From contig JAFUVS010000001.1 in assembly GCA_017471175.1 (NCBI GenBank), positions 1 through 37,457 of the forward strand: DNA of 37,457 nt, read 5' to 3'. The notes beneath the pieces were generated by a model. It was given only the letters and a program-made list of their open reading frames with translations, was not told where the DNA came from and did no database searches. Both the position numbers and the translations under genes were made by a program. Positions 2,276 to 37,349 of the stretch are shown here, piece by piece; the first letter of the stretch is position 1, and every line of letters starts with the position of its first letter. The stretch is from Paludibacteraceae bacterium. Lineage in GTDB: Bacteria; Bacteroidota; Bacteroidia; Bacteroidales; Paludibacteraceae.

Positions 2276-2283
2276 TTGATACA

Positions 2284-13975: not shown

Positions 13976-13996
13976 ATCGCAGTATATTAGCTAATT

Positions 13997-20909: not shown

Positions 20910-20951
20910 ATTCTTATTCTTTACGATTGGACAATATAGTGCTCATTTTGC

Positions 20952-23900
20952 TTACTCCATCGTAATGGACAATGCCAAACCTTGCAGTTCGTGCAGTAAG
21001 ACATTCAACGATTCGGGAAGCCCGGGAGTAGGCATCGGTTCACCTTTAACAATTGCTTCATAGGTGCGTGCACGACCGGTTACATCGTCCGACTTGACGG
21101 TCAAGATCTCTTGTAGCACGTGAGCGGCTCCGTGAGCCTCCAATGCCCAAACCTCCATCTCACCGAAACGTTGTCCACCGAATTGCGCCTTACCGCCTAA
21201 CGGCTGTTGAGTTATCAGACTGTACGGACCAATCGAACGGGCGTGCATCTTGTCGTCCACCATGTGACCTAACTTCATAAAGTAAGTTACGCCCACAGTA
21301 GCCATCTGGTCAAACGGCTCACCGGTGCCGCCATCATAGAGTTGCGTCTTACCGGCACGAGGCAGACCTGCCTTATCCGTCCATTCGTTCAGATTATCGA
21401 GCGTGCAACCATCAAAGATAGGCGTAGCGAATTTGACACCTAACTCCTTGCCTGCCCAACCGAGAACCGCCTCAAAAATCTGACCGATATTCATACGCGA
21501 AGGCACACCCAACGGGTTAAGAACAATATCAACAGGCGTTCCGTCTGCCAAGAAAGGCATATCCTCAATACGGACAATCTTCGATACAATACCCTTGTTT
21601 CCGTGACGACCCGCCATCTTATCGCCGACACGAATCTTACGCATCTTGGCCAAATATACCTTCGCCAACTTCAAAATACCGTTGGGCAGTTCATCGCCGA
21701 TGGTAAGATTGAAATTACGACGTTTGAGGTCGGCTTCAAGTCGCTTAACCTGTTCCAAGTAGTTGGTCACGCAACGTGAACACAATTCGTTCTTATGTGC
21801 GTCCGTAGTCCAACCCTCTTGCATAACCGTCTCAAAGTCAATCTGACCGAGACGCTCTTTGGTAAAGGTCTGACCCTTGGCAATGATCTCTGTTCCGAGC
21901 AGGTCAACCACACCTTGTGAGGTGCGACCTTTGAGCAAAGTGGATAATTTGCCAATCAGTATCTGACGAAGGTTCTCGACCTTATTGTCATGCTCCTGGC
22001 GCATTGCTGCCAACTGGTCTTTCTCCTCCGCTTTTTCTTTGCGGTCTTTCTGCTTGCGCTCATACAGACGACGCTCTATAACCACACCTTCCAACGATGG
22101 TGTTGCCTTGAGTGAAGCGTCTTTCACATCACCCGCCTTGTCGCCGAAAATGGCTTTAAGCAGTTTCTCTTCGGGCGTCGGATCAGACTCTCCCTTCGGA
22201 GTAATCTTACCTACTATAATATCGCCGGGCTTGATGTGTGCACCGATGCGGATGATACCGTTCTCGTCCAAATCTTTAGTGGCATCTTCACTGACATTAG
22301 GTATATCGGCTGTCAGCTCCTCCATACCGCGCTTGGTGTCGCGTACTTCAAGCAGGTTCTCTACCACGTGAACAGAGGTGAACATATCTTCACGAACAAT
22401 ACGCTCGCTCAATACAATAGCATCCTCGTAGTTGTAACCCTTCCACGGAATGTACGCCACCTTCAAGTTCTTACCGAGTGCCAATTCACCGTTCTGCGTA
22501 GCGAAACCTTCCGTCAGAATCTGACCTTTCTCCACCTTGTCGCCTTTGCGAACAATAGGATGAAGGTCGATCGTGGTGTTTTGGTTGGTCTTCTGGAATT
22601 TCGGCAACATATATTCTTTCTCTGCCGACTCGAAGGATACAAACTCTTCCTCTTCGGTACGGTTATAACGAATACGTATCGTATCGGCATCCACAAACGT
22701 TACTTCGCCTTCGCCTTCCGCCTCTATTTGCGTACGCGAGTCACGAATCAATTGACCCTCGATACCTGTTCCGACAATAGGTGCTTCCGGACGCAACAAG
22801 GGTACACCCTGACGCATCATGTTCGAACCCATCAAAGCACGGTTGGCATCATCATGCTCCAAGAAAGGAATCAAGGCTGCAGCAATAGAAGCAATTTGCG
22901 AGGGCGATACGTCCATCGCGTCAATCTGCTCCGGCTCTACAACAGGGAAATCAGCTTCATAGCGAGCCTTTACCTTATTCATCAAGAACTTGCCGTTCTC
23001 GTCCAAAGGCGCATTACCTTGCGCCACGGTCATATTCTCTTCGTCCTCCGCCGTGAGGTACATGATATGTTCGTTATCAAGGTCAACCACACCGTTCTGC
23101 GCCTTACGATAAGGAGTCTCAATGAAACCGAGATTATTGACCTTCGCATAGATACAAAGCGACGAAATCAAACCGATATTCGGACCTTCCGGTGTCTCAA
23201 TCGGACACAAACGACCATAGTGCGTATAGTGTACGTCACGCACCTCGAATCCGGCACGGTCACGACTCAAGCCGCCGGGACCTAATGCCGACATACGACG
23301 CTTGTGCGTAATCTCTGCCAACGGGTTCTGCTGATCCATAAACTGGCTCAGTGCGTTCGTACCGAAATAGGAATTGATAACCGAAGAAATAGCCTTATTG
23401 TTAATCAAGTCGGTAGGAGTGAACACCTCGTTATCACGGACGTTCATACGCTCGCGGATGGTACGACCCATACGAGCCAAACCTACACCGAACTGATTGT
23501 AGAGCTGCTCACCGACGGTGCGGACACGACGGTTAGACAAGTGGTCTATATCGTCCACATCGGCGTTCGAGTTAATCAACTCAACAAGGTATTGGATAAT
23601 CTTTATTATATCATCGTTGGTAAGCGTGCGCTTACTCATTGGCGTTTTCATATCAAGTTTGCGATTGATACGATAACGTCCTACCTCTCCGAGGTCATAT
23701 CGTTTTTCGGAAAAGAAGAGGTTCTGTATCATTTCGCGCGCTGTAGGTTCATCGGCAGGCTCTGCATTACGCAACTGACGATAGATGTACAGCACAGCCT
23801 CTTTTTCAGAGTGCGTCGGGTCTTTCTGCAAGGTATTGAAGATAATCGAATACTTGGCTTCACCCGTTTCCTGCTTGTGCAGCAAGATGGTTTTTGTATT

Positions 23901-24764
23901 GGTTTCCAATATACGTTCCACCAATTCGGGAGTCAGTTCTTCTTCGCGCTCGATGATAATCTCGTTACGCTCAATGGAAACAACCTCACCGGTGTCCTCA
24001 TCCACGAAGTCTTCAGCCCAAGAATTAAGCACATTACCGGCAAGCGTCCTGCCGATAGCAGCTTCAAGGTTCTCACGGGTGCACTTAACCTCTTCTGCCA
24101 AACCGAAACAATCCAAAATATCCTTATCCGACTCGTAACCGATAGCACGCAACAAGGTCGTTACCGGCAATTTCTTCTTACGGTCGATATAGGCATACAT
24201 CACATTGTTGATGTCGGTGGCAAACTCTATCCACGAACCGCGGAACGGTATGATACGGGCAGAATAAAGCTTGGTGCCGTTCGAGTGCATCGAAGTGCCG
24301 AAGAATACACCCGGAGAACGGTGCAACTGGCTCACAATCACACGTTCAGCACCATTGATAACGAACGTACCCTTCGGGGTCATATACGGGATTGTCCCCA
24401 AGAACACATCTTGAATGACGGTATCAAAGTCCTCATGGTCAGGGTCGGTGCAATACAACTTGAGTTTGGCCTTCAAGGGTACTGCATAGGTCAGACCGCG
24501 CTTGATACACTCGTCTATGCTGTAGTTGGGATGGTCAATGTAATAGTCAAGGAACTCGAGGATAAAATTGTTGCGTGTGTCAGCTATCGGAAAATTCTCA
24601 CTGAACACTTGGAACAAACCTTCTTTGCGTCGCTCTTCAGGGGTAGAGTCAATCTGGAAAAACTCACGGAACGATTTAATCTGAATATCCAAAAAGTCAG
24701 GATACGGGAATTGCTGCTGCATCGCCGAGAAATTGACTCTTTGTGTGGTGTGATTGGTTGCCAT
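20952..24764 (-). CDS. rpoB: RNA polymerase subunit beta
   Basis: A 1270-residue beta subunit, the usual Bacteroidota size. The rifampicin pocket reads [20 protein letters not shown], then A-L-G-P-G-G. The Asp, His and Ser residues most often changed in rifampicin-resistant strains are all present in the sensitive form. The active-site segments [12 protein letters not shown] and the C-terminal [13 protein letters not shown] are intact. It starts at the ATG 24764, after a 144-nt spacer from rplL that holds two tandem hairpins, and rpoC follows after 42 nt. Confidence 0.99.
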
Positions 24765-24827
24765 TTGATTTTATATTATTTAAACTTAAATGGTGTCTTT
24801 TAACCTATTTTTTAATCCGGTTAAGAC

Positions 24828-24883
24828 TTTTCTCTTTTTGAGAGAAAAAGGTTTAGACCTCGTTTTTGCACGAGATCTAAACC
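24828..24883 (-). terminator. Attenuator-like tandem hairpins between rplL and rpoB
   Basis: Positions 24850-24857 pair with 24876-24883 (GGTTTAGA/TCTAAACC), and after one mismatch 24859-24863 pair with 24870-24874 (CTCGT/ACGAG), leaving a 6-nt loop. On the minus strand the stem is followed directly by TTTTT. A second hairpin, TTTTCTC/GAGAAAA (24828-24834 with 24842-24848), comes next. This is the shape of a leaky rho-independent terminator. It is placed where E. coli also lowers transcription from ribosomal-protein genes into rpoBC. Confidence 0.7.
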
Positions 24884-24908
24884 GTTGTTTCGTTACTTAC
24901 GAACGGGA

Positions 24909-25283
24909 TTATTGCAGTTCTACTACTGCGCCTACTTCTTCAAGGGCTTTCTTCAGGGCTTCAGCACCTGCTTTGTCCATACCCTCTTTAATCTTCGAAG
25001 GAGCAGCATCTACCAAGTCCTTAGCCTCTTTCAGACCCAGACCGGTTTGCTCTTTAACTGCCTTAACGACTTGCAGTTTCTGTGCACCTGCCTCTTTGAG
25101 GATTACATCGAACGATGTCTTCTCTTCTACGGCGGCTGCCTCAGCGGCTGCGGGAGCTGCTACTGCAACGGCTGCAGCTGCGGGTTCAATACCATACTCC
25201 TCTTTCAGTACTTGAGCGAGTTCGTTAACTTCTTTTACGGTAAGGTTTACCAATTGTTCAGCAATAGCTTTTACGTCTGCCAT
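24909..25283 (-). CDS. rplL: Ribosomal protein bL12 (L7/L12)
   Basis: A 124-residue stalk protein. It has an N-terminal dimerisation helix ([13 protein letters not shown]), an Ala-rich hinge at about 35-52, and the C-terminal factor-binding domain beginning E-K-T-S-F-D-V-I-L with K-x-x-V-V-K-A-V-K and [11 protein letters not shown]. It recruits translation GTPases to the ribosome. It follows rplJ by 50 nt and precedes the attenuator-like hairpins before rpoB. Confidence 0.99.
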
Positions 25284-25333
25284 AACTTTATTTTTTTAAG
25301 ATTTGTTTTTTAATTTGATTGTTTTGTAGAGGA

Positions 25334-25870
25334 TTATGCCTCTTCTCTTTCACCCAGGGTAGTAAGAACACCGTGGATGGTAGTTGCACCTGACTGAAGT
25401 GCACTGATAACGTTCTTAGCGGGCGATTGCAACAGAGCAATAACGTCTGCAATAAGTTCGTTCTTGGACTTGATAGCCGACAGCAACTCCAGGTTCTCGG
25501 CACCCATATAGACCGTCTCTTCTACGTATGCGGCTTTCAACTGGGGCTTAACGTCCTGTTTGCCTTTCTCCTTCTTCAGGATCTCTTTGATGAGCTTGGC
25601 GGGAGCATTACCCGTATTGCTCAACATAAGAGCCGTATTGCCCTTCAACGCATCGAACATCTGTGCATCGATACCTTTCTTTTCAAGGGCTTTCTTCAGA
25701 AGCGTGTTCTTGGCTACAATAAGCTTGATATCATTCTTGAAGCACTGACGACGCAGGTTGCTCGTTTGCTCTGCATTCAGACCCTCGATGTTCGTGAGGT
25801 AGAAATGAGAGTACTCACCCAAAACGGTTTGCAGTTGCTCAATGATTATACCTTTATCTTCCTTTTTCAT
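25334..25870 (-). CDS. rplJ: Ribosomal protein uL10
   Basis: A 178-residue L10, the base of the ribosomal stalk that anchors L7/L12 dimers. The N-terminal rRNA-binding part has Y-L-T-N-I-E-G-L and L-R-R-Q-C-F-K-N-D-I-K-L-I-V-A-K-N-T-L, and the C-terminal helix that binds L7/L12 is present. In many bacteria L10-L12 represses its own mRNA through a long leader. Here only 17 nt separate rplA from rplJ, so that leader form is absent. Confidence 0.98.
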   Translation of the reverse strand: MKKEDKGIIIEQLQTVLGEYSHFYLTNIEGLNAEQTSNLRRQCFKNDIKLIVAKNTLLKKALEKKGIDAQMFDALKGNTALMLSNTGNAPAKLIKEILKKEKGKQDVKPQLKAAYVEETVYMGAENLELLSAIKSKNELIADVIALLQSPAKNVISALQSGATTIHGVLTTLGEREEA

Positions 25871-25887
25871 GGTCGTTACTCCTTAAA

Positions 25888-26580
25888 TTATTCGATGGTT
25901 TTGGGATCAATCTTAATACCTTTGCTCATGGTACTCGAAAGATAAATACTCTTGATATACGTACCCTTGCTGGCAGCCGGTTTGAGTTTGATGATGGTTT
26001 GGATGAACTCGTTGGCATTTTGTGCAATAGCATCGGGCGTAAAACTTACCTTACCGATAGAGGTATGTACAATACCGAATTTATCAACCTTGAAGTCAAT
26101 CTTACCTTGCTTAACCTCCTTAACGGCCTTCGCTACATCGGGAGTAACCGTACCGCTCTTTGGGTTAGGCATCAAGCCGCGAGGACCGAGAATACGACCT
26201 AACGCACCAATCTTACCCATATACTGGGGTTGCGTAATCATTACATCGAAATCTGTCCAACCGCCTTTGATTTTCTCTACGTATTCGTCCAAACCGATAT
26301 AGTCGGCACCTGCCTCTTTGGCAGCAGCTTCCTGGTCGGGACCAACGAGAGCCAACACGCGAGTTACCTTACCCGTTCCGTTCGGCAGCGATACAACGCC
26401 ACGAACCATCTGGTTGGCCTTACGAGGGTCAACGCCCAAACGAACATCGATATCCACGCTCGCATCGAACTTCGTATGCGTAATCTCTTTTACCAATGCG
26501 GCAGCTTCTGCCACAGAATAGAGCTTGCCTGCTTCAATCTTCTCAGCAGCCAGCTTTTGATTTTTTGTCAATTTTGCCAT
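25888..26580 (-). CDS. rplA: Ribosomal protein uL1
   Basis: A 230-residue L1 of normal length. It contains the conserved segment [19 protein letters not shown] and the end [10 protein letters not shown]-type strand (here [12 protein letters not shown]). L1 forms the L1 stalk and in many bacteria represses the rplK-rplA mRNA. It follows rplK by 17 nt. Confidence 0.99.
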
Positions 26581-26597
26581 AGTTGTGAGAATTTTGA

Positions 26598-27020
26598 TTA
26601 TTTAACAGTGATACCCATACTGCGAGCAGTACCCTTGACCATCTTCTCGGCACTCTCTACCGTGAAGCAGTTAAGGTCAGCCATCTTGTCCTGTGCGATT
26701 TGCTTGCATTGCTCTTCGGTAATCGAACCTACTTTCTTACGGTTTGGCTCAGCCGAACCGCCCTTCAGCTTGGCTGCCTCAATGAGTTGAACAGCTACAG
26801 GAGGAGTCTTAACAATGAAGTCAAACGACTTGTCAGCATAAACGGTAATTACAACGGGAAGAACTTTCCCTGCTTTGTCTTGAGTTCTGGCATTGAACTG
26901 CTTGCAGAACTCCATAATGTTCACACCCTTCGATCCGAGTGCCGGACCTACCGGAGGTGCAGGATTGGCAGCTCCACCTTTAATCTGGAGTTTGATGAAT
27001 CCTGAAACTTCTTTTGCCAT
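26598..27020 (-). CDS. rplK: Ribosomal protein uL11
   Basis: A 140-residue L11 with the N-terminal [21 protein letters not shown] signature, including the thiostrepton-region prolines, and the C-terminal rRNA-binding domain ending G-T-A-R-S-M-G-I. It binds the GTPase-associated centre of 23S rRNA. A 185-nt spacer separates it from nusG, by far the longest gap within the ribosomal-protein part, and that spacer could hold an internal leader. Confidence 0.99.
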
Positions 27021-27205
27021 TTTTTTGTAATAGTTTTTGCAATTCTAACGACTCTCTTGTGGTTTCTATCAGCAACGCACGTCACTTTAACGCTGCTATA
27101 ATCTTATATTGATTGAATTTTGCCGATGGAAACTACAATATATAAGTCTCTTGCTGTTAATAAATAAACTACCCGAGTAGTACTTGCGACTCGTAACAGC
27201 GTCTC
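27021..27205 (-). promoter_or_regulatory. nusG-rplK spacer with a leader-type hairpin
   Basis: This spacer has no coding frame. On the minus strand AGCAGCG (27097-27091) can pair with CGTTGCT (27077-27071), 7 bp with one G-U pair and a 13-nt loop, followed about 50 nt later by the rplK ATG. A small 5-bp repeat (CGAGT/ACTCG, 27174-27193) lies just after the nusG stop. I see no TAnnTTTG promoter. L1 commonly binds the L11-mRNA leader, so an autoregulatory site is plausible, but I cannot match the L1 motif with certainty. Confidence 0.3.
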
Positions 27206-27757
27206 CTACTCTTTATCTACTTGTGAGAAACTGAGTTCAAGCGGCGTTTGACGGTCAAAGATAGTAACCACTACGCGCAACTTGTGCTTCTCTTGCATCA
27301 CCTCTTGGATGACACCGCTGAAGCCGTTGAACGGACCCTCTATAACCTTTACTTTCTCGCCCGCGAGGAAAGTCTCGTCAAGCTGCAAGTTCAATTCAGT
27401 CTCGTCCACCGTACCGACCATCTTATTGATTTCCGATTGCGAAACAGGAGCAGGCTTAATATCCTTGCGACCATCGCTCAAGAAACCCAATACGTTCGGT
27501 ATATTACGCAACAGAGGGTAACATTCGTCCGTCAGGTTACATTCTACTAATACATAACCGGGCAGTTTGTTACGCTCTTTGATGGTGCGTTTGCCACGAC
27601 GCAGTACTACTACTTTTTCCGTTGGAATCAGTACCTGGGACACATACTCCTTGAAGAGCGACGAAGTCTGCAAGGCACCTTCGATATATTCGCGCACCTT
27701 GTTTTCCTTACCGCTGATAACGCGGAGTACATACCACTTGAAATCATTTTCGGCCAT
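27206..27757 (-). CDS. nusG: Transcription termination/antitermination factor NusG
   Basis: A 183-residue NusG. The NGN domain begins W-Y-V-L-R-V-I-S-G-K-E-N-K-V and includes L-P-G-Y-V-L-V-E. The C-terminal KOW domain has F-L-A-G-E-K-V-K-V-I-E-G-P-F-N-G-F-S-G-V-I-Q-E-V. It is the housekeeping form, since it is placed between secE and rplK; UpxY-type paralogs belong to capsule loci. It acts on RNA polymerase elongation and coupling to the ribosome. It starts 48 nt after secE. Confidence 0.98.
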   Translation of the reverse strand: MAENDFKWYVLRVISGKENKVREYIEGALQTSSLFKEYVSQVLIPTEKVVVLRRGKRTIKERNKLPGYVLVECNLTDECYPLLRNIPNVLGFLSDGRKDIKPAPVSQSEINKMVGTVDETELNLQLDETFLAGEKVKVIEGPFNGFSGVIQEVMQEKHKLRVVVTIFDRQTPLELSFSQVDKE

Positions 27758-27805
27758 ATCTAAACATTCAGATGATGTTCAACACTCGTTTACTATTCCT
27801 TCTGT

Positions 27806-27994
27806 TTAGAACAGACCGTAAATGAGAGTCATAAGATTCTCGAAACACCAGTCCATCAGCCACACGATGAGTGCTAAAATAATGGAAGCAACTAACACTA
27901 ACACCGAGCTTTGTCCTAACTCCTTGCGGGTAGGCCAACTGACTTTGTTGACCATTTCGTTGTACGATTCCTTTACGCTTTCTACCAGTTTCAT
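27806..27994 (-). CDS. secE: Preprotein translocase subunit SecE
   Basis: A 62-residue single-span SecE. It has the conserved amphipathic helix with V-N-K-V-S-W-P-T-R-K-E-L, followed by one transmembrane helix (L-V-L-V-A-S-I-I-L-A-L-I-V-W-L). The short, one-helix form is the usual one outside the gammaproteobacteria. It is part of the SecYEG channel. It lies between tRNA-Trp and nusG, as elsewhere in Bacteroidota. Confidence 0.96.
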   Translation of the reverse strand: MKLVESVKESYNEMVNKVSWPTRKELGQSSVLVLVASIILALIVWLMDWCFENLMTLIYGLF

Positions 27995-28188
27995 ATAAAT
28001 AGATTTGTCTTTTGTTCACTGCTACACGCGCCCTAGAACGCCTTGTTACTTACACACATATAGACACCCCAATATCGGCATCAACGCGCAACCTTCTCTT
28101 ATGTGAGATTTACCCCGGAACTGATTTCTGTTCCTCTCACTGGCGATACGGCGGTTTGACGTCGAATGGAAGCTATGTCTGTAACAAG

Positions 28189-28259
28189 CACGGAAGGCAG
28201 GAATCGAACCCACATTAACGGTTTTGGAGACCGCTCTCCTACCATTGGAGGACTTCCGT
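28189..28259 (-). tRNA. tRNA-Trp (anticodon CCA)
   Basis: On the minus strand the acceptor stem is ACGGAAG/CTTCCGT with discriminator G. The anticodon arm is GCGGT-CTCCAAA-ACCGT with CCA at the centre, and the T-loop is TTCGATT. The 3' CCA is not encoded. It stands between tuf and secE. Confidence 0.95.
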
Positions 28260-28320
28260 ATATTCCTTGCACTGATTGTGTATCAACGAATGCGAAGGAA
28301 TAATACTATCTTTTCAGTTA

Positions 28321-28365
28321 TCATAACATTCTGCTGAACCTCAATACTTCAGCAGAATGTTATGA
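28321..28365 (-). terminator. 18-bp perfect hairpin after tuf
   Basis: Positions 28321-28338 pair without a mismatch with 28348-28365 around a 9-nt loop, starting 9 nt beyond the tuf stop. On the minus strand no T-run follows, so it is not a standard rho-independent terminator. It may be a 3'-end stabiliser, a processing site separating tuf mRNA from the tRNA-Trp-secE part, or a partial terminator. Confidence 0.6.
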
Positions 28366-28374
28366 ATGAATGGT

Positions 28375-29562
28375 TTAGTCAAGAATCTTCGTGATTTGAC
28401 CCGAACCTACGGTACGACCGCCTTCACGGATAGCGAAACGCAGACCTTCAGAGCAAGCTACCGGATAGATGAGTTTAACTTGAATCTCGAGGTTGTCGCC
28501 GGGCATAACCATCTCGGTTCCTTCGGGAAGAGTAATCTCACCGGTAACGTCCATCGTACGGATGTAGAATTGAGGACGATAGTGGTTGTGGAACGGAGTG
28601 TGACGACCGCCTTCCTCTTTCTTCAGGATATATACGGAAGCCTTGAACTCCTCGTGAGGCTTAACGCAACCCGGATGGGTAATAACCATACCGCGCTTAA
28701 CCTCGTCCTTGTCGATACCACGGAGCAACAGACCTACGTTATCGCCGGCTTCACCTTGATCCAACAGTTTGCGGAACATTTCAACGCCGGTTACAACGCT
28801 CTTCTTACCTTCCGCACCGAGACCTTCCAATTGAACTTCGTCACCTACTTTGATGACACCGGTCTCAATACGACCTGTAGCCACTGTACCACGACCCGTG
28901 ATTGAGAATACGTCCTCAACAGGCATCAAGAAGGGTTTGTCGATAGCGCGAGGAGGCAGTTGAATCCATGTATCAACAGCGTCCATCAACTCCATCACCT
29001 TGTCTTCCCACTCAGGTACACCGTTCAATGCACCAAGAGCAGAACCGCGAATAACAGGAGTATTGTCGCCATCGAACTCATAGAAACTCAAAAGCTCACG
29101 CATTTCCATCTCAACGAGGTCAAGCATCTCGGGATCGTCCACCATATCGCACTTGTTCATAAATACAACAAGACGAGGAACGTTCACTTGGCGGGCGAGC
29201 AGGATGTGCTCACGGGTTTGAGGCATAGGACCATCGGTAGCTGCTACTACGATGATAGCACCGTCCATCTGGGCAGCACCCGTAACCATGTTCTTTACAT
29301 AGTCAGCGTGCCCCGGGCAGTCAACGTGCGCGTAGTGGCGGTTTGCTGTTTGGTACTCAACGTGGGCGGTGTTGATAGTGATACCACGCTCTTTCTCTTC
29401 AGGAGCATTGTCGATTGAATCGAACGAACGAACTTCACTCAAACCTTTCTTGGCGAGTACTTGGGTGATAGCGGCGGTCAATGTCGTTTTGCCGTGATCT
29501 ACGTGACCGATAGTACCGATGTTAACGTGCGGTTTCGAACGGTCAAATTTCTCTTTTGCCAT
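28375..29562 (-). CDS. tuf: Elongation factor Tu
   Basis: A 395-residue EF-Tu carrying aminoacyl-tRNA to the ribosome. The GTPase motifs are all present: G1 G-H-V-D-H-G-K-T at 18-25, the effector Thr in R-G-I-T-I-N-T-A, G3 D-C-P-G-H, and G4 N-K-C-D. Domains 2 and 3 complete the normal length. It is flanked by tRNA-Thr(GGT) 115 nt upstream and tRNA-Trp downstream. No separate promoter was found directly in front, so transcription probably comes from the tRNA promoter near 30.3 kb. Confidence 0.99.
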
Positions 29563-29677
29563 AATTCTAGAATTTTGTTTTATTAACGTTAATAACTATT
29601 TTTTTCTTTTCCTTATTGATTATGCATATAAGACCCACCGTCTAACCGACAAGGCAGCCTCATTACGCTTAACAGAG

Positions 29678-29749
<72 letters not shown>

Positions 29750-29785
29750 AAAATATACTTTCATCACAAGAGCTTTCACTCTTTG

Positions 29786-29858
29786 AGCGGAAAACGGGAC
29801 TCAAACCCGCGACCCCCAGCTTGGAAGGCTAGTGCTCTATCGACTGAGCTATTTCCGC
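29786..29858 (-). tRNA. tRNA-Gly (anticodon TCC)
   Basis: The acceptor stem is GCGGAAA/TTTCCGC with discriminator T. The anticodon loop CTTCCAA gives TCC, and the D-arm is AGCTCAGTCGATAGAGC. No encoded CCA. Confidence 0.95.
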
Positions 29859-29973
29859 AAAATCCTGTGTCGCACAACATTTCGCGGGAGCTTGGCTACG
29901 CCGTATCGCTAAAGCAAGCTTTAGCCGGCTTGCACAAGGCTTCCGCTTGGCATTTCTATAATTGTGCAATCTG
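29859..29973. other. 115-nt spacer between tRNA-Tyr and tRNA-Gly with inverted repeats
   Basis: This spacer is longer than its neighbours. GCTAAAG-CAAG-CTTTAGC (29908-29925) is a perfect 7-bp hairpin, overlapped by GCAAGC/GCTTGC, and several GCTTG-type motifs recur. The transcript would carry a stable structure here that might guide tRNA processing. Alternatively it is the relic of a small repeat element. Confidence 0.4.
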
Positions 29974-30056
29974 TGGGTGCGGATGGATTCGAACCACCGA
30001 AGTCGAGAGACAGCAGATTTACAGTCTGCCCCATTTGGCCACTCTGGAACACACCC
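29974..30056 (-). tRNA. tRNA-Tyr (anticodon GTA)
   Basis: The acceptor stem is GGGTGTG/CGCACCC (one G-U pair) with discriminator A. The anticodon loop CTGTAAA gives GTA. The long variable arm of a class II tRNA is present, giving 83 nt. No encoded CCA. Confidence 0.95.
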
Positions 30057-30139
30057 GTATTTTCAAAGAGCATTCAGTTTTCAGCTTTCAGCACTCTACT
30101 TCTTGCCAACTGACCACTGACTTCTGACAGCTTTTTATG
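30057..30139. repeat. tRNA spacer built of CTGA/TCAG-type short repeats
   Basis: Between tRNA-Thr(TGT) and tRNA-Tyr the + strand reads as imperfect 7-8-nt copies: CAGTTTTCAG, CTTTCAGC, CAACTGAC, CACTGACT and TCTGACAG. It looks like a short degenerate tandem-repeat tract rather than unique spacer DNA. No gene is seen. Confidence 0.45.
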
Positions 30140-30212
30140 AGCCTCTAGTCGGACTCGAACCAACGACCGCTGGATTACAAATCTAGTGCTCTACCAACTG
30201 AGCTATAGAGGC
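30140..30212 (-). tRNA. tRNA-Thr (anticodon TGT)
   Basis: The acceptor stem is GCCTCTA/TAGAGGC with discriminator T. The anticodon loop TTTGTAA gives TGT, and the T-loop is TTCGAGT. It is the first gene of the tRNA-tuf-rpo block, about 70 nt after the predicted start of transcription. Confidence 0.95.
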
Positions 30213-30320: not shown

Positions 30321-30565
30321 ACTTTTTGTAAAAAAAAATCACTAAAACTGCATTTTTTTACTCTTTCTTCACAAATCCTACCCTATTTTGCCGCCTCCAT
30401 CCTCCTAACCGATTCCAATACATTCTCCCCTATTCCCCGACATTCTCCCCCTTTTCCCCTTTCACTCCCGCATATAAAGCACGTCATTAGCGGGTGATTA
30501 GCGGGTGATTCGGCGACACAATCCGAAGCAGCGCAACAGCCGTACCATTCTCAGCAAGCAAAAAA
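30321..30565. other. Intergenic region with C-rich tract and 11-bp repeats
   Basis: No coding frame. After an A/T-rich stretch there is a C-rich tract (30427-30459) with four runs of four or more C, and ACATTCTCCCC twice at 20-nt spacing. Then follow two copies of an 11-bp unit (30486-30507) and the terminator of the adhesin operon beyond. Confidence 0.6.
30486..30510 (-). repeat. 11-bp tandem repeat, two units (AATCACCCGCT on the minus strand)
   Basis: The + strand reads ATTAGCGGGTG twice, then ATT. The unit begins AATCAC on the minus strand, as does the 3-unit repeat at 36962-36994. Eleven base pairs is close to one helical turn. Confidence 0.8.
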
Positions 30566-30597
30566 GTCGCCCGACTTCGTAGAAGAAGTCAGGCGAC
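30566..30597 (-). terminator. Rho-independent terminator of the giant-adhesin operon
   Basis: GTCGCC/GGCGAC and, after one mismatch, GACTTC/GAAGTC form a 13-position stem with a 6-nt loop. On the minus strand it is followed by six T (30565-30560). It lies 24 nt after the stop of the 53-residue peptide gene. Confidence 0.9.
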
Positions 30598-30621
30598 TCG
30601 ACATTACATATCCACACAAGC

Positions 30622-30783
30622 TTACTTACTCGGCTCCTGGCGTGGGAAATAAGACTCGCGCGCAGGTGCACCCGGATACGAGGGCGTAAAGGGAAGACCC
30701 GAATCCCCGGAGGATGTGGTTTGCAGTACGGACTGAACTGTCAGATTAACCTCTTGTGTCTGAGGTTGCATATACTTTTTCAT
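30622..30783 (-). CDS. Small peptide of the M-K-x-Y-x-Q-P type, 53 residues
   Basis: A short frame from ATG at 30783 to TAA at 30622-30624. The N-terminus is M-K-K-Y-M-Q-P-Q-T-Q-E-V-N-L, the middle has S-S-G-D-S-G-L-P-F, and the C-terminal third is rich in Pro, Ser and Arg. It has no signal peptide or membrane segment. A second gene in this window (37185-37349) shares nine of the first fourteen residues and the G-D-x-x-L-P element, so both are real and related. It follows the giant secreted-protein gene by 34 nt and is followed by a strong terminator, so it is the last gene of that operon. I know of similar unexplained short proteins starting M-K-K-Y-x-x-P in Bacteroidales. Function unknown; a precursor-peptide role is speculative. 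Confidence 0.75.
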   Translation of the reverse strand: MKKYMQPQTQEVNLTVQSVLQTTSSGDSGLPFTPSYPGAPARESYFPRQEPSK

Positions 30784-30817
30784 AGTTTGCGTATTCTTTA
30801 GAGATTAATTTTTTCAT

Positions 30818-33800
30818 TTACTTCATTTCGCGTCCTTGCGCATCGTACAGTTTGCCTTCGCGGACAATATAGAGAACGCCGTTGCGAATGACTTTCTGTA
30901 CATTCTCATTTCCTGTGGCTGCCTCATCGATAGCGGTTGGCATACCGTGTTTGCCAATCACGCGGATAGCGTATGCCGTGGTCGTGCCGCGAGCAAGGTC
31001 AAGCGTATAATCGCCGCGAGTCAAATCAGCAACCTCAACGCCGTTGTACATAAGCACAACCTGCGTACCTGCTTCACACTGAGGAGCGGCTATCGTATAT
31101 GCACCTGCCTGAGGAGCGAAGATGCCAAGAGGATACTCGGATATCTCGTTCTCGCCGGTCGCTATCGTATTGACACACAACTTGCTGTTATAGCGATTAA
31201 CCCACATCTGAGCCACCTTGCCGCTTACCGACACTTTAGCAAGGTCTTGACCTATAACGTACTCATCAAGTGCGTCTTCACTGGTATGCAGATATACGCG
31301 GTCGGTCATCTTTGTATTGTCTGACAGTGTTACTACGCACTCGCTGTTCTCTTCCGACATACGGCGAACGGGCGCACCGGAAGCAAACGGTTGAGCAGAT
31401 ACCGTAGCACTCGACTCTACCTGAACAAAGACAGGTTTACCCACATAGAAATGCTCGTTAGCGAGTTCTCTTACATCGTAACTATCGCTTTCGGGTTGAT
31501 AGAACTGTCCATATACTACCGTTCCGGCATTCAGTTGGGCGGTATAGAGCTTCCAGTTGGCTATGCCGTTCCAGTTCTTCGCCTTTTCGGTGGCTGCACC
31601 GCCGTTGTCATATTCATTAACCGTAACCGAACCGCTATAAACAAGGTCTGCACCGGCTTTCTTCATAAAGGTTACATCGTTTTGTGCGGCATAGAAATAG
31701 ATCATATACAGACGACCCGGAACGAGTGTCTTATCGTTCTGCTTCGAGAGGAACTCCCAAGCCGAATTGTCGGTAGCCGCATCTTCATCGGCAATGGTGG
31801 CACGGGTGGCACCGTTGAAGCTGATGATATGATAGTCTTTACCCAACGTGAGCGTCTTGTTGCCTGCCTTCACAGTCGCACCATCGCACTCAAACGGAAC
31901 GGCAAAGTCGTACCACAAGGCAGCGGCTGCGTTGAATACATACTTATAATATACATTACCGCCGGCGGCTATCTGTATGTTCTCCGCACCGATAATTTGA
32001 CCGGCAGCCGTTGCACTTGCCTCTATTGTCAGGTCTGCATAGGTCGTCGTTTCCTCTATCGTTACCACATCATTGATAGATACCACCTTGCTTTCGGGCT
32101 CTTCCGGCGTATCGGGTGTATCGGGTTCGTCATCTTTCGTTCCGGTGGCAGTCAGCGTTACATCACCCGTAACAGTGAAGGTCTTGTTACCCGTCGTGTT
32201 GTCGTTCCACTTAACCGCCACATAGCCTTCGGCAGGTACTACCGACAGGGTTACGCTTGCGCCGTATTCATACGTACCCGCACCGATTACCGTACAATTC
32301 TCCGCCGTAACTTTCACCGTATATTTATTCTTCTCAGCCGTGATATCTGCCGAATAAGTAACAGGATCATCCGAAATGACTGCAGCCACAGCAGGTATCC
32401 ACGCTACCGTATAGGTATATTCAGCCGTTGCATCTTTTGTATATACGGGAGCAACAGGAGTTTGACCGATTTCTACGGTTTGCGCATCACCTATTTGGTT
32501 TCCGTTTTCGTCCTCGAATGTAACAACTGCCGACTTACGCGCTGTCGAATATTGAGCCGTGAAACTCATATCTTTCGTAGCTGCCGTCACTGCAGTTATA
32601 GCCGGTTGCCAACCGGTGAACGTATAAGTATATTCGGTAGTTGCCGGTTTAGTCGGAACGTTGCTATACAAACCTGCCAAGAGCGTTCCTTCGCGCACGT
32701 TGTCAAAACTTTGCAGTACTGAACCGTCATAGTTCTTGAAGGTGATAGTGAACTCAGTGGGCGGTTCGGGAGTGAACACAGCCTGATAAGTCTGATTACC
32801 TACAACTGCACCTATGCCGGGCGACCATGTAAGGAAGTAACCTGTCTTGGCGGGAGTGTTTTCACACTCAGGCATCTCATCGCGCGTTAAGAAATGACGC
32901 TCTATCTCTTTACCCGTCTCATCAAGGAAGATGATAGTATATTTGCGCTGCGTAGCCTCGTAAGTGGCTGTATAGGTAGCATCCTCGGTAACAGCAACAA
33001 ATTCCGGAGTCCAGCCGGTGAACGTGTAGGTATAGTCCACATCCTCCGCGCGGGTCGGGTTCGTACCATTATAGAAAGGCATTGTGCCGTACGACAGCTC
33101 ATAAATTGTGGCATCAGCCTCGCTGTTAGCTATATCCGATCCGTCCCAATTAACGAACTGAACCATAAACTGACGTTCGTGCCAGCGCGGCTCATCGTAT
33201 GCGCCATCGTTGTCGTCATAAACATAGTACTTACCGTTCGTGCCGCGATAGAGGTTATTAACCAATGTTACCTCCCACCATTGGTTCTCCACCAGGATGA
33301 ACAGCCTGCCTTCTCCTGCTGCATCGCTATACGTATGGTCGGCATTGATACGTGGCTCCGTGCCAATAACCTCCGTTTCACTGGACTGCGTAGCTATAGA
33401 CACGTATGCACCCGGCTTCACATACCAAGCACCATAGTTGTCATATACGAACGGATCGGCATCCGTCATCATACGCCATCTGTCTTCTACAAAGCAGTAC
33501 GCTTGACCGGCAGGCGTTTCCGCTGAATTAGCAAATGCCGGATCCTGACCCGCATTATTGCGCAACAGAGCCGGAATAGTGGCTATCGGAGTCAAATTGT
33601 TCACATTCGCCCCGACTTTGAACTGGTAAAGTTTGTCATCTGCCGAAGCCGGAGCGGCTGTCGTGAAACGAACCGTACCGGCATCCGCATTCGTTGAGAA
33701 GATATTGGCACCCGAAGTAGTGGTCAGCAAACGTCCTTTGATATCAAACGTACCATGTACATTCAGCTTAGCATCCCCTATCGCTTCCAACGAAGACACG

Positions 33801-36670
33801 TCGCGAACCGTCGGCTTACCGCCCCAAGAAGGCGTGAAACCGATTACTTGGGCGTATGCATTGCGCGCGTACTTATCCCATTGGTCGGTATCGTACATAT
33901 ACAGCGACACACCCGCATTGATGGTTACCGTGGCTTCTTTATCCACCTCTATCTCCGTACCGGGCAGCATCTCCGTATTCTGCGTAATATCCATAGCACC
34001 CGTCAGCAGGTGAATCTTCATATTACTCGTCAAGGGAAGCACAAATTTCTTCGAATCGAAACTATCCATACCCAACGCACGAAGCATCGGTAATGCAATC
34101 ACCATCGAACCAAGGTGCGCACCGCTATTCACGTCATACACCTGTTTGTCATTTGTTACATCATACCACTTACGAACCCACGTATTTTCGGCATCTGCGG
34201 CAGGATCCATCAAGTACATAGCATTTTCACCCGACAAACCGACTATCTGTATATTGTCTGCTGCTGCTGTTATACCCGCACCCGTCGCCGCAAATGACGT
34301 ATAAAGACGAGAACCCGGATGATAAACCGTGGCGGCTTCTACATTCTGAATAAAGTACTGATTGAGCGGAAACAATTTGTAGTCGTTCGCTTTCTGATAC
34401 ATATTGAAAGCATTACCCGCACCGGGCCAGTCATACACTTGGAAGAACTCGCGAACCTGAGATCCGCGGCGCGCATGTATCTCACCTTCACCCGTTACAT
34501 AACCCCAAGCATACATCACCGCTCCGTCTTCCAACGTCATCGTACTACCCGCATTGAGCGCAATCAAACCGTATGCACCTGTCGATGTAGCACTTGTACC
34601 GGGCTGCGTCACTTGACCGCAATACTGATAACCGCCCGTTTCTACTTTTCCATATACATCTAAGTGTGCACCGGAAGCAAGAGTCAGACGAAGATACTCA
34701 CTATGCGGAACAGACGACAACGTACGTAACACCTTGCTGCCGGCACCCTCACGCTGCGAATCCGATGCAGGCACCAACAACGTAGCATTTGCCGGTAATG
34801 TATAGTAACCGGCAGGAAGCGTATAGTTGTTCACCATCAGAATGGTCACCACCTCGCTCGGATTATTCTGCGCGTACAGCAGAGCCTCCTCCAACGTACC
34901 ATAAGCCGTTGTGCCGATTGCACATACGCTCACCGCATCATCCTTTGCATTCTCGCTCGTACCGACAAAGTAGCGGTAACCGTCTGTATAGGCCTGACCC
35001 GCACCTATGTTATATATGGTCTGGTTGGCAGCCAACGTATAACTGTTCACAAAATCGTTCACTACAAAATAGCCCGATACCAACGTCACTTTGTTGCCGC
35101 TGTTGGTAACCTCCGACATATTGCCGTCCGTATTCTTCGCACTGAAACGGGCTCCGTCTATCGTCACTTCACTGCCCGCTTTTAACGCCACAGCACTGCC
35201 GTAACCGCCCGTTGATGCCGACAAGACAGCATACTGACCCAGACTGACCGTACCGCCGATCACATCCATCGCTACAGGACTCGTACCCGTCGCACGTATC
35301 GTTACATTATGAGCATTCAACGTACCGGCATTGACAACTACGCCACGACCGCTCGCACCGCTGACCGATGCCGTGATCTTGCCGCCTTCCAAACTTACCG
35401 AACCGCCCATTACTTGAACACCTGCCGCCGCGGAAGTGGAAGATACGTTAATCTCACCGCTCGACATCTGAACGGTACCTTCATTATTGATACCGGCTGT
35501 CGTCGCTGTCAATATTCCATCCACAAAATAGAATGAACCGCCTGCCGATACCGATACAGCCGTCACGCCGATAATCTCGCCGCGTTTCAGCGTCAACGAA
35601 CCCGACTCTACCGTCACAGCCACACCGTCCGACTCCAACACGCCTATCAACTTGCTGTCTATAATCGCAACATCGCTATTCACCGCCAGCGAACCGGACA
35701 AACGACGACCATTCAAGTCCAAGGTCATAGCCTTCGCTATACCCTGTGTGGCAGCCATATTCACATCACGAAGCAACTGCACCGTATCACCGGCCATCGC
35801 TTGAGCCATCGCATCCGCCCAAGACAAAGTCAATTGCTTCGCTCCGTTCTTCACCATCACGTCATTGGCAGCAGCAGGCTCAACCACCACTTTTATCGTA
35901 GCCTTAAACGATGAACCACCCTTGGAAGCAAGCGTCAAATCAGCTGTATACGTACCTACCGAAGCAGCCGTAAACGACACCGGCACAATAACCATATCGT
36001 CTTCAAGCACCGCTCCCGACCAATCAACCGCATACGAACCGCCCGCTGTAGCATTAGCGAAAACCGGCTCCTCAAAGTCATCCAACGAAACGGCATAACC
36101 CGTCGAGAATATCACTTGCCACTCCTTGTTCTCATTTGCCGTTGCATAGGCCAACTGACCCTCCGTGCAACTATATACGGGAATAGACTTAAACACTGCC
36201 TTATAAGCACTCAATGCAGGATAACTGTCCTTGAATGTCTCCTCCAACGGATAAAAATAGGGCGTACCCGTCCCATCAAAATTGGAAGTCGTAGCTGCAC
36301 TGAAAACAGAATCCTTACGAGGCATCTCCTTGAAGGTTTCGCCTGTTTCCACCTTAAGCCAGTGGTCAAAATAATAACCCTCATTCGGAGTAGCATAGAA
36401 ATATACTTTTACATACAAACCGCCACCCGATAACGCATCCAAAGTAGAACCTTTTTCCGAAAACACTTCCGTCACTTCATCGCTCTGATAATCCGGGCGA
36501 TCCGTCAATTCAGCCGATAAAGCCACCTCACCATTCCCATCTGTCTGAACCTTTGCTTCTGCAAAAGCCGTTATACTGGATGGAAGGCTCTGACCATTCA
36601 TTTGCAGCACACCACAGGTAATCAAACCTATAAGAACCGCAGAAAAACGAATCATACGTTTCATAATCAT
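30818..36670 (-). CDS. Giant secreted beta-helix / Flg_new-repeat surface protein
   Basis: A 1950-residue protein with a signal peptide (M-K-R-M-I-R-F-S-A-V-L-I-G, about 26 residues; the ATG at 36664 is an equally good start). Residues about 270-560 alternate short Gly/Ser/Val strands (L-D-L-N-G-R, S-L-T-L-K-R-G, S-V-S-L-E-G-G-K-I) in the manner of a right-handed parallel beta-helix. Residues about 1165-1480 hold Listeria-Bacteroides (Flg_new/InlB B-type) repeats marked by Y-T-Y-T-F-T-G-W. An acidic D-x-P-D-T-P linker follows near 1515, then a beta-rich domain. The last 25 residues (V-I-R-N-G-V-L-Y-I-V-R-E-G-K-L-Y-D-A-Q-G-R) resemble the end of Bacteroidota secreted proteins with type IX-like sorting regions. 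I infer a cell-surface adhesin. No enzyme motif is seen. Confidence 0.85.
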   Translation of the reverse strand: MIMKRMIRFSAVLIGLITCGVLQMNGQSLPSSITAFAEAKVQTDGNGEVALSAELTDRPDYQSDEVTEVFSEKGSTLDALSGGGLYVKVYFYATPNEGYYFDHWLKVETGETFKEMPRKDSVFSAATTSNFDGTGTPYFYPLEETFKDSYPALSAYKAVFKSIPVYSCTEGQLAYATANENKEWQVIFSTGYAVSLDDFEEPVFANATAGGSYAVDWSGAVLEDDMVIVPVSFTAASVGTYTADLTLASKGGSSFKATIKVVVEPAAANDVMVKNGAKQLTLSWADAMAQAMAGDTVQLLRDVNMAATQGIAKAMTLDLNGRRLSGSLAVNSDVAIIDSKLIGVLESDGVAVTVESGSLTLKRGEIIGVTAVSVSAGGSFYFVDGILTATTAGINNEGTVQMSSGEINVSSTSAAAGVQVMGGSVSLEGGKITASVSGASGRGVVVNAGTLNAHNVTIRATGTSPVAMDVIGGTVSLGQYAVLSASTGGYGSAVALKAGSEVTIDGARFSAKNTDGNMSEVTNSGNKVTLVSGYFVVNDFVNSYTLAANQTIYNIGAGQAYTDGYRYFVGTSENAKDDAVSVCAIGTTAYGTLEEALLYAQNNPSEVVTILMVNNYTLPAGYYTLPANATLLVPASDSQREGAGSKVLRTLSSVPHSEYLRLTLASGAHLDVYGKVETGGYQYCGQVTQPGTSATSTGAYGLIALNAGSTMTLEDGAVMYAWGYVTGEGEIHARRGSQVREFFQVYDWPGAGNAFNMYQKANDYKLFPLNQYFIQNVEAATVYHPGSRLYTSFAATGAGITAAADNIQIVGLSGENAMYLMDPAADAENTWVRKWYDVTNDKQVYDVNSGAHLGSMVIALPMLRALGMDSFDSKKFVLPLTSNMKIHLLTGAMDITQNTEMLPGTEIEVDKEATVTINAGVSLYMYDTDQWDKYARNAYAQVIGFTPSWGGKPTVRDVSSLEAIGDAKLNVHGTFDIKGRLLTTTSGANIFSTNADAGTVRFTTAAPASADDKLYQFKVGANVNNLTPIATIPALLRNNAGQDPAFANSAETPAGQAYCFVEDRWRMMTDADPFVYDNYGAWYVKPGAYVSIATQSSETEVIGTEPRINADHTYSDAAGEGRLFILVENQWWEVTLVNNLYRGTNGKYYVYDDNDGAYDEPRWHERQFMVQFVNWDGSDIANSEADATIYELSYGTMPFYNGTNPTRAEDVDYTYTFTGWTPEFVAVTEDATYTATYEATQRKYTIIFLDETGKEIERHFLTRDEMPECENTPAKTGYFLTWSPGIGAVVGNQTYQAVFTPEPPTEFTITFKNYDGSVLQSFDNVREGTLLAGLYSNVPTKPATTEYTYTFTGWQPAITAVTAATKDMSFTAQYSTARKSAVVTFEDENGNQIGDAQTVEIGQTPVAPVYTKDATAEYTYTVAWIPAVAAVISDDPVTYSADITAEKNKYTVKVTAENCTVIGAGTYEYGASVTLSVVPAEGYVAVKWNDNTTGNKTFTVTGDVTLTATGTKDDEPDTPDTPEEPESKVVSINDVVTIEETTTYADLTIEASATAAGQIIGAENIQIAAGGNVYYKYVFNAAAALWYDFAVPFECDGATVKAGNKTLTLGKDYHIISFNGATRATIADEDAATDNSAWEFLSKQNDKTLVPGRLYMIYFYAAQNDVTFMKKAGADLVYSGSVTVNEYDNGGAATEKAKNWNGIANWKLYTAQLNAGTVVYGQFYQPESDSYDVRELANEHFYVGKPVFVQVESSATVSAQPFASGAPVRRMSEENSECVVTLSDNTKMTDRVYLHTSEDALDEYVIGQDLAKVSVSGKVAQMWVNRYNSKLCVNTIATGENEISEYPLGIFAPQAGAYTIAAPQCEAGTQVVLMYNGVEVADLTRGDYTLDLARGTTTAYAIRVIGKHGMPTAIDEAATGNENVQKVIRNGVLYIVREGKLYDAQGREMK

Positions 36671-36847
36671 CTCTTTTTATTTATTTTCTATTGTTATATT
36701 ATATCCTTTGGTATTCTACTCTCTATCCTACTATATCTACTCTCTACCTTATGGCCTCTATTTTATACGATACTACTAACAATCACTATCGCCCTTTCCC
36801 AACGTTTTCACCCCTCCTGCCATACCGCACAAGATAGTAAAATCGCG
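36671..36847 (-). promoter_or_regulatory. Long 5' leader of the giant adhesin gene
   Basis: From the predicted transcription start (about 36841) to the ATG is about 170 nt. It is rich in A and purines on the minus strand near the start codon. The 11-mer TCTACTCTCTA (+ strand) occurs at 36715-36725 and 36736-36746, 21 nt apart. No known riboswitch is recognised. Confidence 0.4.
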
Positions 36848-36879
36848 CAAAAGTAAGGCTTTATATTAAAATACGCAAA
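36848..36879 (-). promoter_or_regulatory. Promoter of the giant adhesin operon
   Basis: On the minus strand TTTG (36879-36876) is followed by 20 nt and TACTTTTG (36855-36848), a full consensus match. Its -7 box is identical to that of the tRNA/tuf promoter at 30290-30297. Confidence 0.8.
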
Positions 36880-37184
36880 TAAAAAATCGCACCAACCACG
36901 AATTATACCATCTTCTGCTATTTACACATTACATTCCCATCCCTCCTCGCCCCGTTACTATATTATGTGATTATTATGTGATTATTATGTGATTCCGCTA
37001 TGTACTCGCAATATGCCGCAGATAATCTGATAGATACAAAAGTGCAAAAAACACACAAAACAACCATTCGACACTCCAAGGTCTATAAACTCAACCTCGA
37101 AGCATCGAATGATTTATTCTCCAAGCCTGCCGTAAGACACGCCCTCACAGGGCGCACCGCCTCCCCGGCGAGCGCAAATCTCGC
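36880..37184. other. Intergenic region upstream of the adhesin promoter
   Basis: No coding frame. From low to high coordinate it holds a pyrimidine-rich, C-rich tract (about 36929-36956), the 11-bp repeat (36962-36994), an unremarkable A/T-rich stretch, and a GC-rich hairpin cluster (37132-37188) abutting the stop of the 54-residue peptide gene. Confidence 0.6.
36962..36994 (-). repeat. 11-bp tandem repeat, three perfect units (AATCACATAAT on the minus strand)
   Basis: ATTATGTGATT occurs three times in direct succession on the + strand. On the minus strand each unit begins AATCAC, as in the repeat at 30486-30510, while the other five bases differ (ATAAT against CCGCT). Confidence 0.9.
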
Positions 37185-37188
37185 TTAC
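37132..37188 (-). other. GC-rich hairpin cluster after the 54-residue peptide gene
   Basis: CGCCCT/AGGGCG (37140-37145 with 37149-37154) is a 6-bp hairpin. CGCC/GGCG (37158-37161 with 37167-37170) and GCGAG/CTCGC (37168-37172 with 37180-37184) are neighbouring alternatives. GTAAG/CTTAC (37132-37136 with 37184-37188) could close the whole. No T-run follows on the minus strand, so it is not a standard terminator. Confidence 0.4.
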
Positions 37189-37349
37189 AGTTGGCGCCGC
37201 TTGTTGCCCGGCGCGTCCATCATCAACGAACCGCTATCCTGACCGCCCGCAGCTACGTTTTCAGGCAAGGATGCATCACCTGCCACCTTCATCACAAATT
37301 CCGATAACAACAGCACTTCCGTCGTCTCAGGTTGAATGTATGCTTTCAT
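37185..37349 (-). CDS. Small peptide of the M-K-x-Y-x-Q-P type, 54 residues
   Basis: A frame from ATG at 37349 to TAA at 37185-37187. It begins M-K-A-Y-I-Q-P-E-T-T-E-V-L-L, carries A-G-D-A-S-L-P, then a Gly/Ser/Met-rich part, and ends in a basic patch (N-K-R-R-Q-L). It is clearly related to the 53-residue peptide at 30622-30783. There is no signal peptide. No consensus promoter is seen in the 108 nt upstream that remain in the window. By analogy with the other copy it may be the last gene of an operon lying beyond the right edge. Function unknown. Confidence 0.7.
   Translation of the reverse strand: MKAYIQPETTEVLLLSEFVMKVAGDASLPENVAAGGQDSGSLMMDAPGNKRRQL

Follow-up and report, generated by a model that had tools for sequence, protein, structure and literature searches.

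Discrete recognition proteins that read a short YxxP motif serve two described groups of ribosomally synthesized and post-translationally modified peptides (RiPPs), the lasso peptides and the linear polyphosphorylated peptides (LPPs) (PMC13381572, PMC12710340). The LPPs and their lpp clusters were described in 2026, as restricted to Bacillota and with the role of the peptides left open, and they derive from precursors of 35-200 aa that have YxxP leaders and variable C-termini and in which one Ser is phosphorylated repeatedly; the parts of the system are a RiPP recognition element (RRE), a SipW-like protease, an HprK kinase, an NTP-transferase and an MsbA-like exporter (PMC13381572). Here we describe a family of short genes, hereafter mini-genes, of which two lie on a contig of a Paludibacteraceae bacterium (JAFUVS010000001.1; the window is this entire contig, 37,457 bases), and we judge with good confidence that their products are precursors of a trans-acting RiPP pathway working like the LPPs of Bacillota. 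This reading draws on the existence of the family, the fixed register of its leader, coding constraint, the position of the genes behind those of large surface proteins (termed cargo), the co-occurrence of three enzymes, and one locus, in genome G146, that links mini-gene and enzymes.

The original prediction, made from the letters of the window, had pointed to two short open reading frames of 53 and 54 codons with a common N-terminus and a GDxxLP element, and lengths, strand and likeness are all as it stated (Table 1). The two mini-proteins agree at 9/14 N-terminal residues (M K. Y. Q P. T. E V. L), and GDxxLP stands in both of them and in one mini-gene 2 relative, that is in 3/63 distinct family members. 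As a pair they are a weak match (E = 0.17 for one genome), and a first single-protein query returned few, mostly weak matches, several of which lined up on K-x-Y-x-x-P. Profiles were then searched against the own genome (G000; 1.81 Mb, 78% complete) and its genus, a sample of 61 genomes from what we judge, on 80 relatives of its protease, to be an uncultured herbivore-gut Paludibacteraceae lineage. A 9-row family profile found mini-genes in 46/61 genomes (matches counted at E <= 10) and a 65-row profile in 47/61 (E <= 0.1), mini-gene 1 being a seed row in both; the latter gave 362 matches in total, 1-23 per mini-positive genome (median 6) and 11 in the own genome, leaving 14 mini-less genomes. 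Neither window mini-protein has a Pfam or NCBIfam match at E <= 5, and 65 members searched against the same databases gave single-member matches only, at E 0.02 or worse, one of them to a lasso model (0.12).

The constant part of these proteins has the form of a leader. YxxP is present in 63/63 distinct members, partly since the profile selects for it, and the spacing after the Pro (P) is fixed and gapless throughout, with Thr at P+2 in 46/63, a hydrophobic residue at P+7 in 59/63 and at P+13 in 62/63 (shuffle mean 17, maximum 27), and Ser at P+17 in 27/63. A small-x-small pattern, the classical preference of signal peptidases, occupies P+15/P+17 in 31/63 members (shuffle mean 10.6, maximum 19) and is nearly as frequent at P+17/P+19 (30/63). 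Ser or Thr occurs within P+14..P+18 in 58/63 members, which is suggestive only as a hint of phosphorylation. Past the leader follows a Gly/Pro/Ser-rich tail whose sequence differs among members. One member, in G026 (C129:21282, locus L098), overlaps the 3' end of a cargo gene by 4 nt and runs without a stop into lipoprotein-like sequence, an open frame of 205 aa that is a possible natural fusion; it was excluded from A2 and entered the counts truncated to 60 residues.

Both window mini-genes belong to a large family and show coding constraint. For mini-gene 1 with its G012 and G073 relatives, all-codon pN/pS (nonsynonymous over synonymous differences) is 0.33-0.44, and for mini-gene 2 with two G012 relatives it is 0.28-0.41; in both sets the tails are constrained at least as much as the leaders (tail pN/pS 0.19-0.30 and 0.19-0.32). 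The variable tail of the original prediction thus stands for paralogues, among which the tails differ, and fails for close relatives, among which they are kept. Five other sets were compared: a four-member set has pN/pS 0.08-0.33 for its differing pairs, two further pairs have 0.35 and 0.38, one pair has 0.86 at a pS of 0.03, too close to judge, and one shows little constraint (0.76 at pS 0.26, tail 0.94), so that constraint does not hold everywhere. The prediction had named a lack of homologues or of coding constraint as the mark of chance or decaying frames; both were looked for and both were found, and chance open reading frames are ruled out by them.

A YxxP leader predicts an RRE in the mini-positive genomes, and Pfam family PF05402 (PqqD-type RRE) was picked for the leader motif before its spread among the genomes had been seen. 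It occurs in 43/61 genus genomes, a signal-peptidase-like protease profile in 42/61 and an HprK-like kinase in 42/61; all of these genomes are mini-positive, and each of the three is found in 0/14 mini-less genomes (Fisher p 1.4e-10 for the RRE, 5e-10 for the protease and 5e-10 for the kinase). In the high-quality subset of 26 genomes (>= 90% complete and <= 5% contaminated) the same 15 have mini-genes and all three enzymes, and the other 11 have none. The common partner that had been proposed for the mini-proteins, an enzyme or a chaperone, may accordingly take the shape of a candidate processing and modification set, since these three genes are the ones that co-occur with the family.

In the own genome the protease, RRE and kinase genes are consecutive (G000:C21:84806-86397), with the RRE in the region of 85666-85857. 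Enzyme loci were taken as the best 80 of 135 matches to the genus protease; 9/80 are under 9 kb, two (L244 and L294) come from one assembly, and the set overlaps the 61 genomes (L231, for example, appears to be G032:C4) and is not independent of them. RRE and protease frames are <= 928 nt apart in 80/80 of these loci, which were found by the protease, and <= 200 nt apart in 75; in one (L297) they are on opposite strands. The kinase lies <= 32 nt from RRE or protease in 27/80 loci and, where it is not adjacent, is often elsewhere in the genome, as its presence in 42/61 genomes indicates. Four loci without an adjacent kinase (L125, L127, L130, L141) have, just upstream of protease and RRE, a gene for a 174-200-aa protein with a C-terminal C-x-C and a secreted-looking N-terminus.

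The proteins themselves fit these assignments to differing degrees. The RRE matches PF05402 at E 3.8e-14, its AlphaFold2 model comprises three strands and three helices (predicted local distance difference test, pLDDT, 87.5), and by our residue count its invariant residues N35, Y64 and D74 correspond to N33, Y60 and D70 of LppB, which are leader contacts (PMC13381572). Given the motif, these contact residues and the co-occurrence, the RRE very likely binds the leader. The protease has TIGR02228 (archaeal signal peptidase I) as its best NCBIfam match, at 1.3e-7 and below the cut-off, and its profile has no match in the PDB at E <= 0.1; its AlphaFold2 model is a mainly beta fold, and its Ser, His and Asp are the same in 12/12 and 30/30 rows, the catalytic residues of LppS being S29, H68 and D93 (PMC13381572). 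The own-genome kinase matches HprK models below cut-off only.

That YxxP leaders and discrete RREs also belong to lasso peptides raises the possibility that the mini-proteins are ordinary lasso peptide precursors. Those lasso systems with split B1 and B2 proteins (fusilassin, paeninodin) share with the present family a YxxPx[LVI]-type leader recognised by a discrete RRE of the PqqD type, and the paeninodin group has, in addition, tailoring by an HprK-like kinase and an NTP-transferase (PMC13381572). The best PDB matches of the RRE profile include the lasso RREs TfuB1 (7.8e-6) and TbiB1 (0.06) besides PbaB1 (0.19), only the match to TfuB1 being strong, and a weak NCBIfam match to a lasso PqqD model was also obtained. 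However, the protease beside the RRE belongs to another family and is signal-peptidase-like, the Gly/Pro/Ser-rich tails show no evident fixed ring acceptor, and neither a macrolactam synthetase (the cyclase) nor a B2-type cysteine peptidase was recognised when some 3.5 kb around 20 genus PqqD loci was read by eye, with no domain search. We therefore regard a lasso product as very improbable. Two loci elsewhere in the order (L186, L188), with PqqD, asparagine-synthetase-like and sulfotransferase-like genes, are lasso-type by appearance.

Physical linkage of precursor and enzymes is seen outside the genus. In G146 a cargo gene (TIGR04183, 4.2e-10), an RRE gene, a 52-residue mini-gene, an HprK-like gene and an S24/S26-like gene stand in a row, followed by an ATP-binding cassette (ABC) transporter gene; the mini-gene begins 41 nt after the RRE gene and has the leader register of the family. 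In G141 an RRE gene, HprK-like, S24-like and ABC genes occur together with an NTP-transferase-like gene in the opposite orientation, and in G113 an RRE gene at a contig edge is accompanied by an ABC transporter, an NTP-transferase (PF14907, 1.3e-44) and a P-loop protein that resembles the kinases of the genus. The mini-genes of G165 stand behind large proteins with T9SS-like ends in 2/3 cases read (T9SS, type IX secretion system), and those of G113 before lipoprotein-like genes in 2/2.

The second constant feature of the family is its position. Surroundings were taken for the 65 best matches of the 9-row profile, 64 of them evaluable (mini-gene 2 lies at a contig end), and 60/64 mini-genes stand directly behind a gene on the same strand that encodes a characteristic C-terminal tail, at a gap of -4 to 258 nt (median 39); the upstream tails are of the kind GxLYIIRxGKxYNAxGQxVK in 56 cases and of the kind LPAGVYVVNGVKIVK in 4, and one of the 60 mini-genes comes second in a tandem pair. 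The expectation that members would share their N-terminus, diverge in their tails and commonly lie behind large genes is supported, the last point by this count. To lessen circularity, a second tail profile drew solely on 24 tails of own-genome cargo genes that lack a mini-gene behind them (tails found via profile A4); it matched 52/59 upstream genes in other genomes vs 15/139 other genes of the same regions, at least two of the 15 themselves preceding further mini-genes and four of the seven misses having the second kind of tail. In one further member (L092, G074:C75, ~7335) a gene for a helix-turn-helix (HTH) protein sits between cargo gene and mini-gene; the intervening protein, of 134 aa, belongs to HTH_3 and is HicB-like by appearance, and the G016 relative of this pair is uninterrupted, with a gap of 93 nt.

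In the window, mini-gene 1 starts 34 nt past the 1950-aa gene and is followed by a 15-pair terminator-like hairpin, as the original prediction had said. Its further idea, that two mini-genes bracket one adhesin as a unit, is dropped as a contig-end artefact, because both G012 relatives of mini-gene 2 lie 54 nt behind a large gene of their own with the same tail; mini-gene 2 lies 108 nt from the contig end, and its cargo gene, if it has one, would be beyond that end. The promoter proposed between mini-gene 2 and the 1950-aa gene finds no support, the two promoter-like sites there standing against a chance expectation of 2.5.

The cargo of mini-gene 1, described earlier as a secreted adhesin, appears secreted from the look of its N-terminus and from its C-terminal tail; for an adhesin, Pfam offers InlB-type B-repeats only and one match below cut-off. 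Its tail is the own genome's best match to A4, in whose seed it stands. The own genome has 73 tail matches, seven of which precede a listed mini-gene, and mini-genes therefore serve a subset of the cargo; A4 was built from mini-associated cargo, so it cannot rank cargo with against cargo without mini-genes. A T-[small or acidic]-[hydrophobic] site lies 36-41 aa from the C-terminus in 35/38 cargo tails and is present in 12/24 own-genome tails without a mini-gene. In Prevotella intermedia, short T9SS signals of ~40 aa and a PT/GI cleavage consensus have been described (PMC11969387); like them the cargo tails are short and follow a PT/GI-like site (PT/AI, 38 aa from the end, in the 1950-aa protein), whereas the order of motifs in the Prevotella signals appears unlike that found here, with GxLYI first and YNAxGQ last. 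The 1950-aa protein has no NCBIfam match, TIGR04183 included, five of six other cargo proteins or tails likewise lack a TIGR04183 match (only the G146 cargo has one), and the cargo tails have no meaningful match in Pfam. From these features we infer that the tail is a T9SS-like signal.

Such a consistent position would also suit small chaperones or targeting factors, whose N-terminus would bind a shared secretion component while the protein acts on the upstream T9SS-type cargo without being processed. The 60/64 count and the conservation of tails among close relatives are as expected of such factors. Yet all 14 mini-less genomes have PorV and tail-bearing genes (3-69 tail matches each, vs 33-113 in 15 mini-positive ones), so secretion as such needs no mini-genes; the N-terminus is a YxxP leader that co-occurs with an RRE-protease pair; and some members are solitary or precede lipoprotein genes. 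A chaperone role is in our view improbable. Presence of the T9SS was also rejected as the cause of the patchy spread of mini-genes, PorV being found in 61/61 genus genomes.

Several observations weigh against the precursor reading, or at least against its simplest form. Three evaluable mini-genes have no cargo gene upstream (two in G079, one in G072), and some G113 and G079 members precede lipoprotein genes; mini-genes directly before lipoprotein-like genes are seen at L110 and L111 (G079) and at L151 and L153 (G113), and these may point to a second kind of surface partner. G004, a near-complete genome and one of the 15 high-quality ones with mini-genes and all three enzymes, is mini-positive by a single weak match (E 0.014), and 4 mini-positive genomes lack the RRE, 5 the protease and 5 the kinase, all of them 59-84% complete. 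Within the genus, a mini-gene lies within ~6 kb in 1/80 enzyme loci, so that precursors are unclustered with enzymes; an NTP-transferase is near the RRE in 3/80, and an ABC exporter in 1/80 at E 1e-30 or 11/80 at E 1e-5. The NTP-transferase family PF14907 is matched in L126 and L176. The likeness of the RRE to LppB is weak (E 0.13). At G146 the kinase (PF07475, 0.0046) and protease (PF00717, 0.0093) matches are weak and below Pfam cut-offs, and ~1.1 kb separates these two genes from the ABC gene. Of the full LPP leader consensus YxxPxVLxHQxIxFETxxS only YxxP is seen, HQxIxFET being absent from the 63-member composition table.

The distribution adds to these points. On a PorV tree of 56 genomes, from which five with incomplete PorV sequences were omitted, mini-positive and mini-less genomes fall into clusters, with 7 changes, 5 of them forced by well-supported branches; of five independent pairs 4 are concordant, 0 discordant and 1 shows no difference, a test (p 0.125) that cannot reach 0.05. 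Order-wide, 148 genomes hold mini-gene profile matches in only 5, own included, and a PqqD match in 95/148, many without a mini-gene match; the four non-own genomes with mini-genes are all PqqD-positive, which adds little where 95/148 are. The co-occurrence is thus a strong pattern resting on few independent events. It could accordingly be a clade effect, in which mini-genes and enzymes disappeared jointly, by chance or for ecological reasons, and the RRE acts on other substrates; the clustering of the label, with too few independent pairs for significance, and the finding that PqqD alone does not imply mini-genes both speak for this. Against it stand at least five forced changes without a discordant pair, the choice of PF05402 from the leader motif, which preceded any knowledge of its distribution, and the physical link of mini-gene and enzymes at G146, and we give a clade effect little probability.

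Under the precursor reading, the likeness to LPPs comprises a discrete RRE, an archaeal-type signal-peptidase-like leader protease with Ser-His-Asp, an HprK-like kinase, short YxxP precursors with differing C-termini and, in some Bacteroidales loci, an NTP-transferase and an ABC exporter. The differences are of several kinds: the hosts are Bacteroidales rather than Bacillota; up to 23 scattered precursor matches per mini-positive genome, with the median of 6, are presumably acted on in trans; the precursor genes stand behind T9SS-type cargo and not in the enzyme cluster, save at G146 and in the one genus locus noted; exporter and NTP-transferase are uncommon beside the RRE; and the distance from Pro to the presumed cut is ~17 residues here vs 12 in LPPs. 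Because three LPP features failed in the genus, namely the rest of the leader consensus, the clustering of precursors and a linked exporter, we regard the system as a Bacteroidota variant and not as an LPP system in the strict sense. What is new is the occurrence in Bacteroidota, the scattered precursors and the coupling to surface cargo; no paper linking such peptides to surface-protein genes was found in the open-access PMC literature.

A working scheme would run as follows. Cargo gene and mini-gene would be co-transcribed, as the 34-nt gap and the hairpin after mini-gene 1 suggest, and the discrete PqqD-type RRE would bind the constant leader (~residues 1-24, K-x-Y-x-x-P-x-T-...-L/M) and present it to the signal-peptidase-like serine protease. 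The protease would cut near the small-x-small site past the hydrophobic P+13, and a cut near residue 24 is fairly probable. The HprK-like kinase would then phosphorylate Ser or Thr near the cut, a step to which we assign an even chance, and the gene-specific tail would come free as the product. A single enzyme set (the one on C21 in the own genome) would serve about ten scattered precursors, and with most precursors examined encoded last, behind the gene of a T9SS-type surface protein, product and cargo would be made jointly. That the product also acts with its cargo at the surface is speculative, and somewhat doubtful as matters stand. An exporter that could carry the product is uncommon beside the enzymes in the genus.

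Table 1. Features of the cargo gene and mini-genes, in window coordinates
Feature	Position	Strand	Basis
1950-aa probable surface protein (cargo), InlB-type B-repeats	30818..36670	-	Pfam at E <= 5
Cargo C-terminal tail, putative short T9SS-CTD (C-terminal domain)-like signal, 38 aa after PT/AI	30821..30934	-	profile A4, E 1.8e-19
Mini-gene 1, 53 aa, predicted RiPP precursor, YxxP at residues 4-7	30622..30783	-	profile E 5.8e-21 (9-row), 2.6e-12 (65-row)
Predicted leader of mini-gene 1, residues 1-24, to P+17	30712..30783	-	presumed boundary; fixed register in 63 members
Predicted core (tail) of mini-gene 1, kept in close relatives	30625..30711	-	tail pN/pS 0.19-0.30, three sequences
Mini-gene 2, 54 aa, predicted RiPP precursor	37185..37349	-	G012 relatives 54 nt behind cargo gene
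Predicted leader of mini-gene 2, residues 1-24	37278..37349	-	presumed boundary; same register as family
Terminator-like hairpin, 15 pairs, 3' of mini-gene 1	30564..30599	-	

Elsewhere the window holds an MBOAT acyltransferase and a GDSL-like protein (722-3204), polysaccharide export genes (two Poly_export proteins and an AAA_31 protein, 11303-15672) and, in one stretch, rpoC, rpoB, rplJ, rplA, rplK and tuf (16647-29562). The rpoC-tuf stretch and tRNA genes (28188-30212) separate the polysaccharide genes from the unit of cargo gene and mini-gene.

Should the precursor reading be correct, LPP-like RiPPs would not be a speciality of Bacillota, and a herbivore-gut lineage would hold scattered precursor sets in place of one cluster. 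Precursor finders that search beside enzymes would miss them, because only one of the 80 enzyme loci has a recognised precursor nearby. Tentatively, the RiPP-type enzymes might even be a general service for surface-protein genes, in which several to about twenty cargo-matched (phospho)peptides per genome are made in trans and act with, mark or anchor their cognate proteins. The link to surface proteins would in any case be a handle on the role of these peptides, which the LPP authors leave open (PMC13381572), with dozens of peptide-cargo pairs on which it could be tested.

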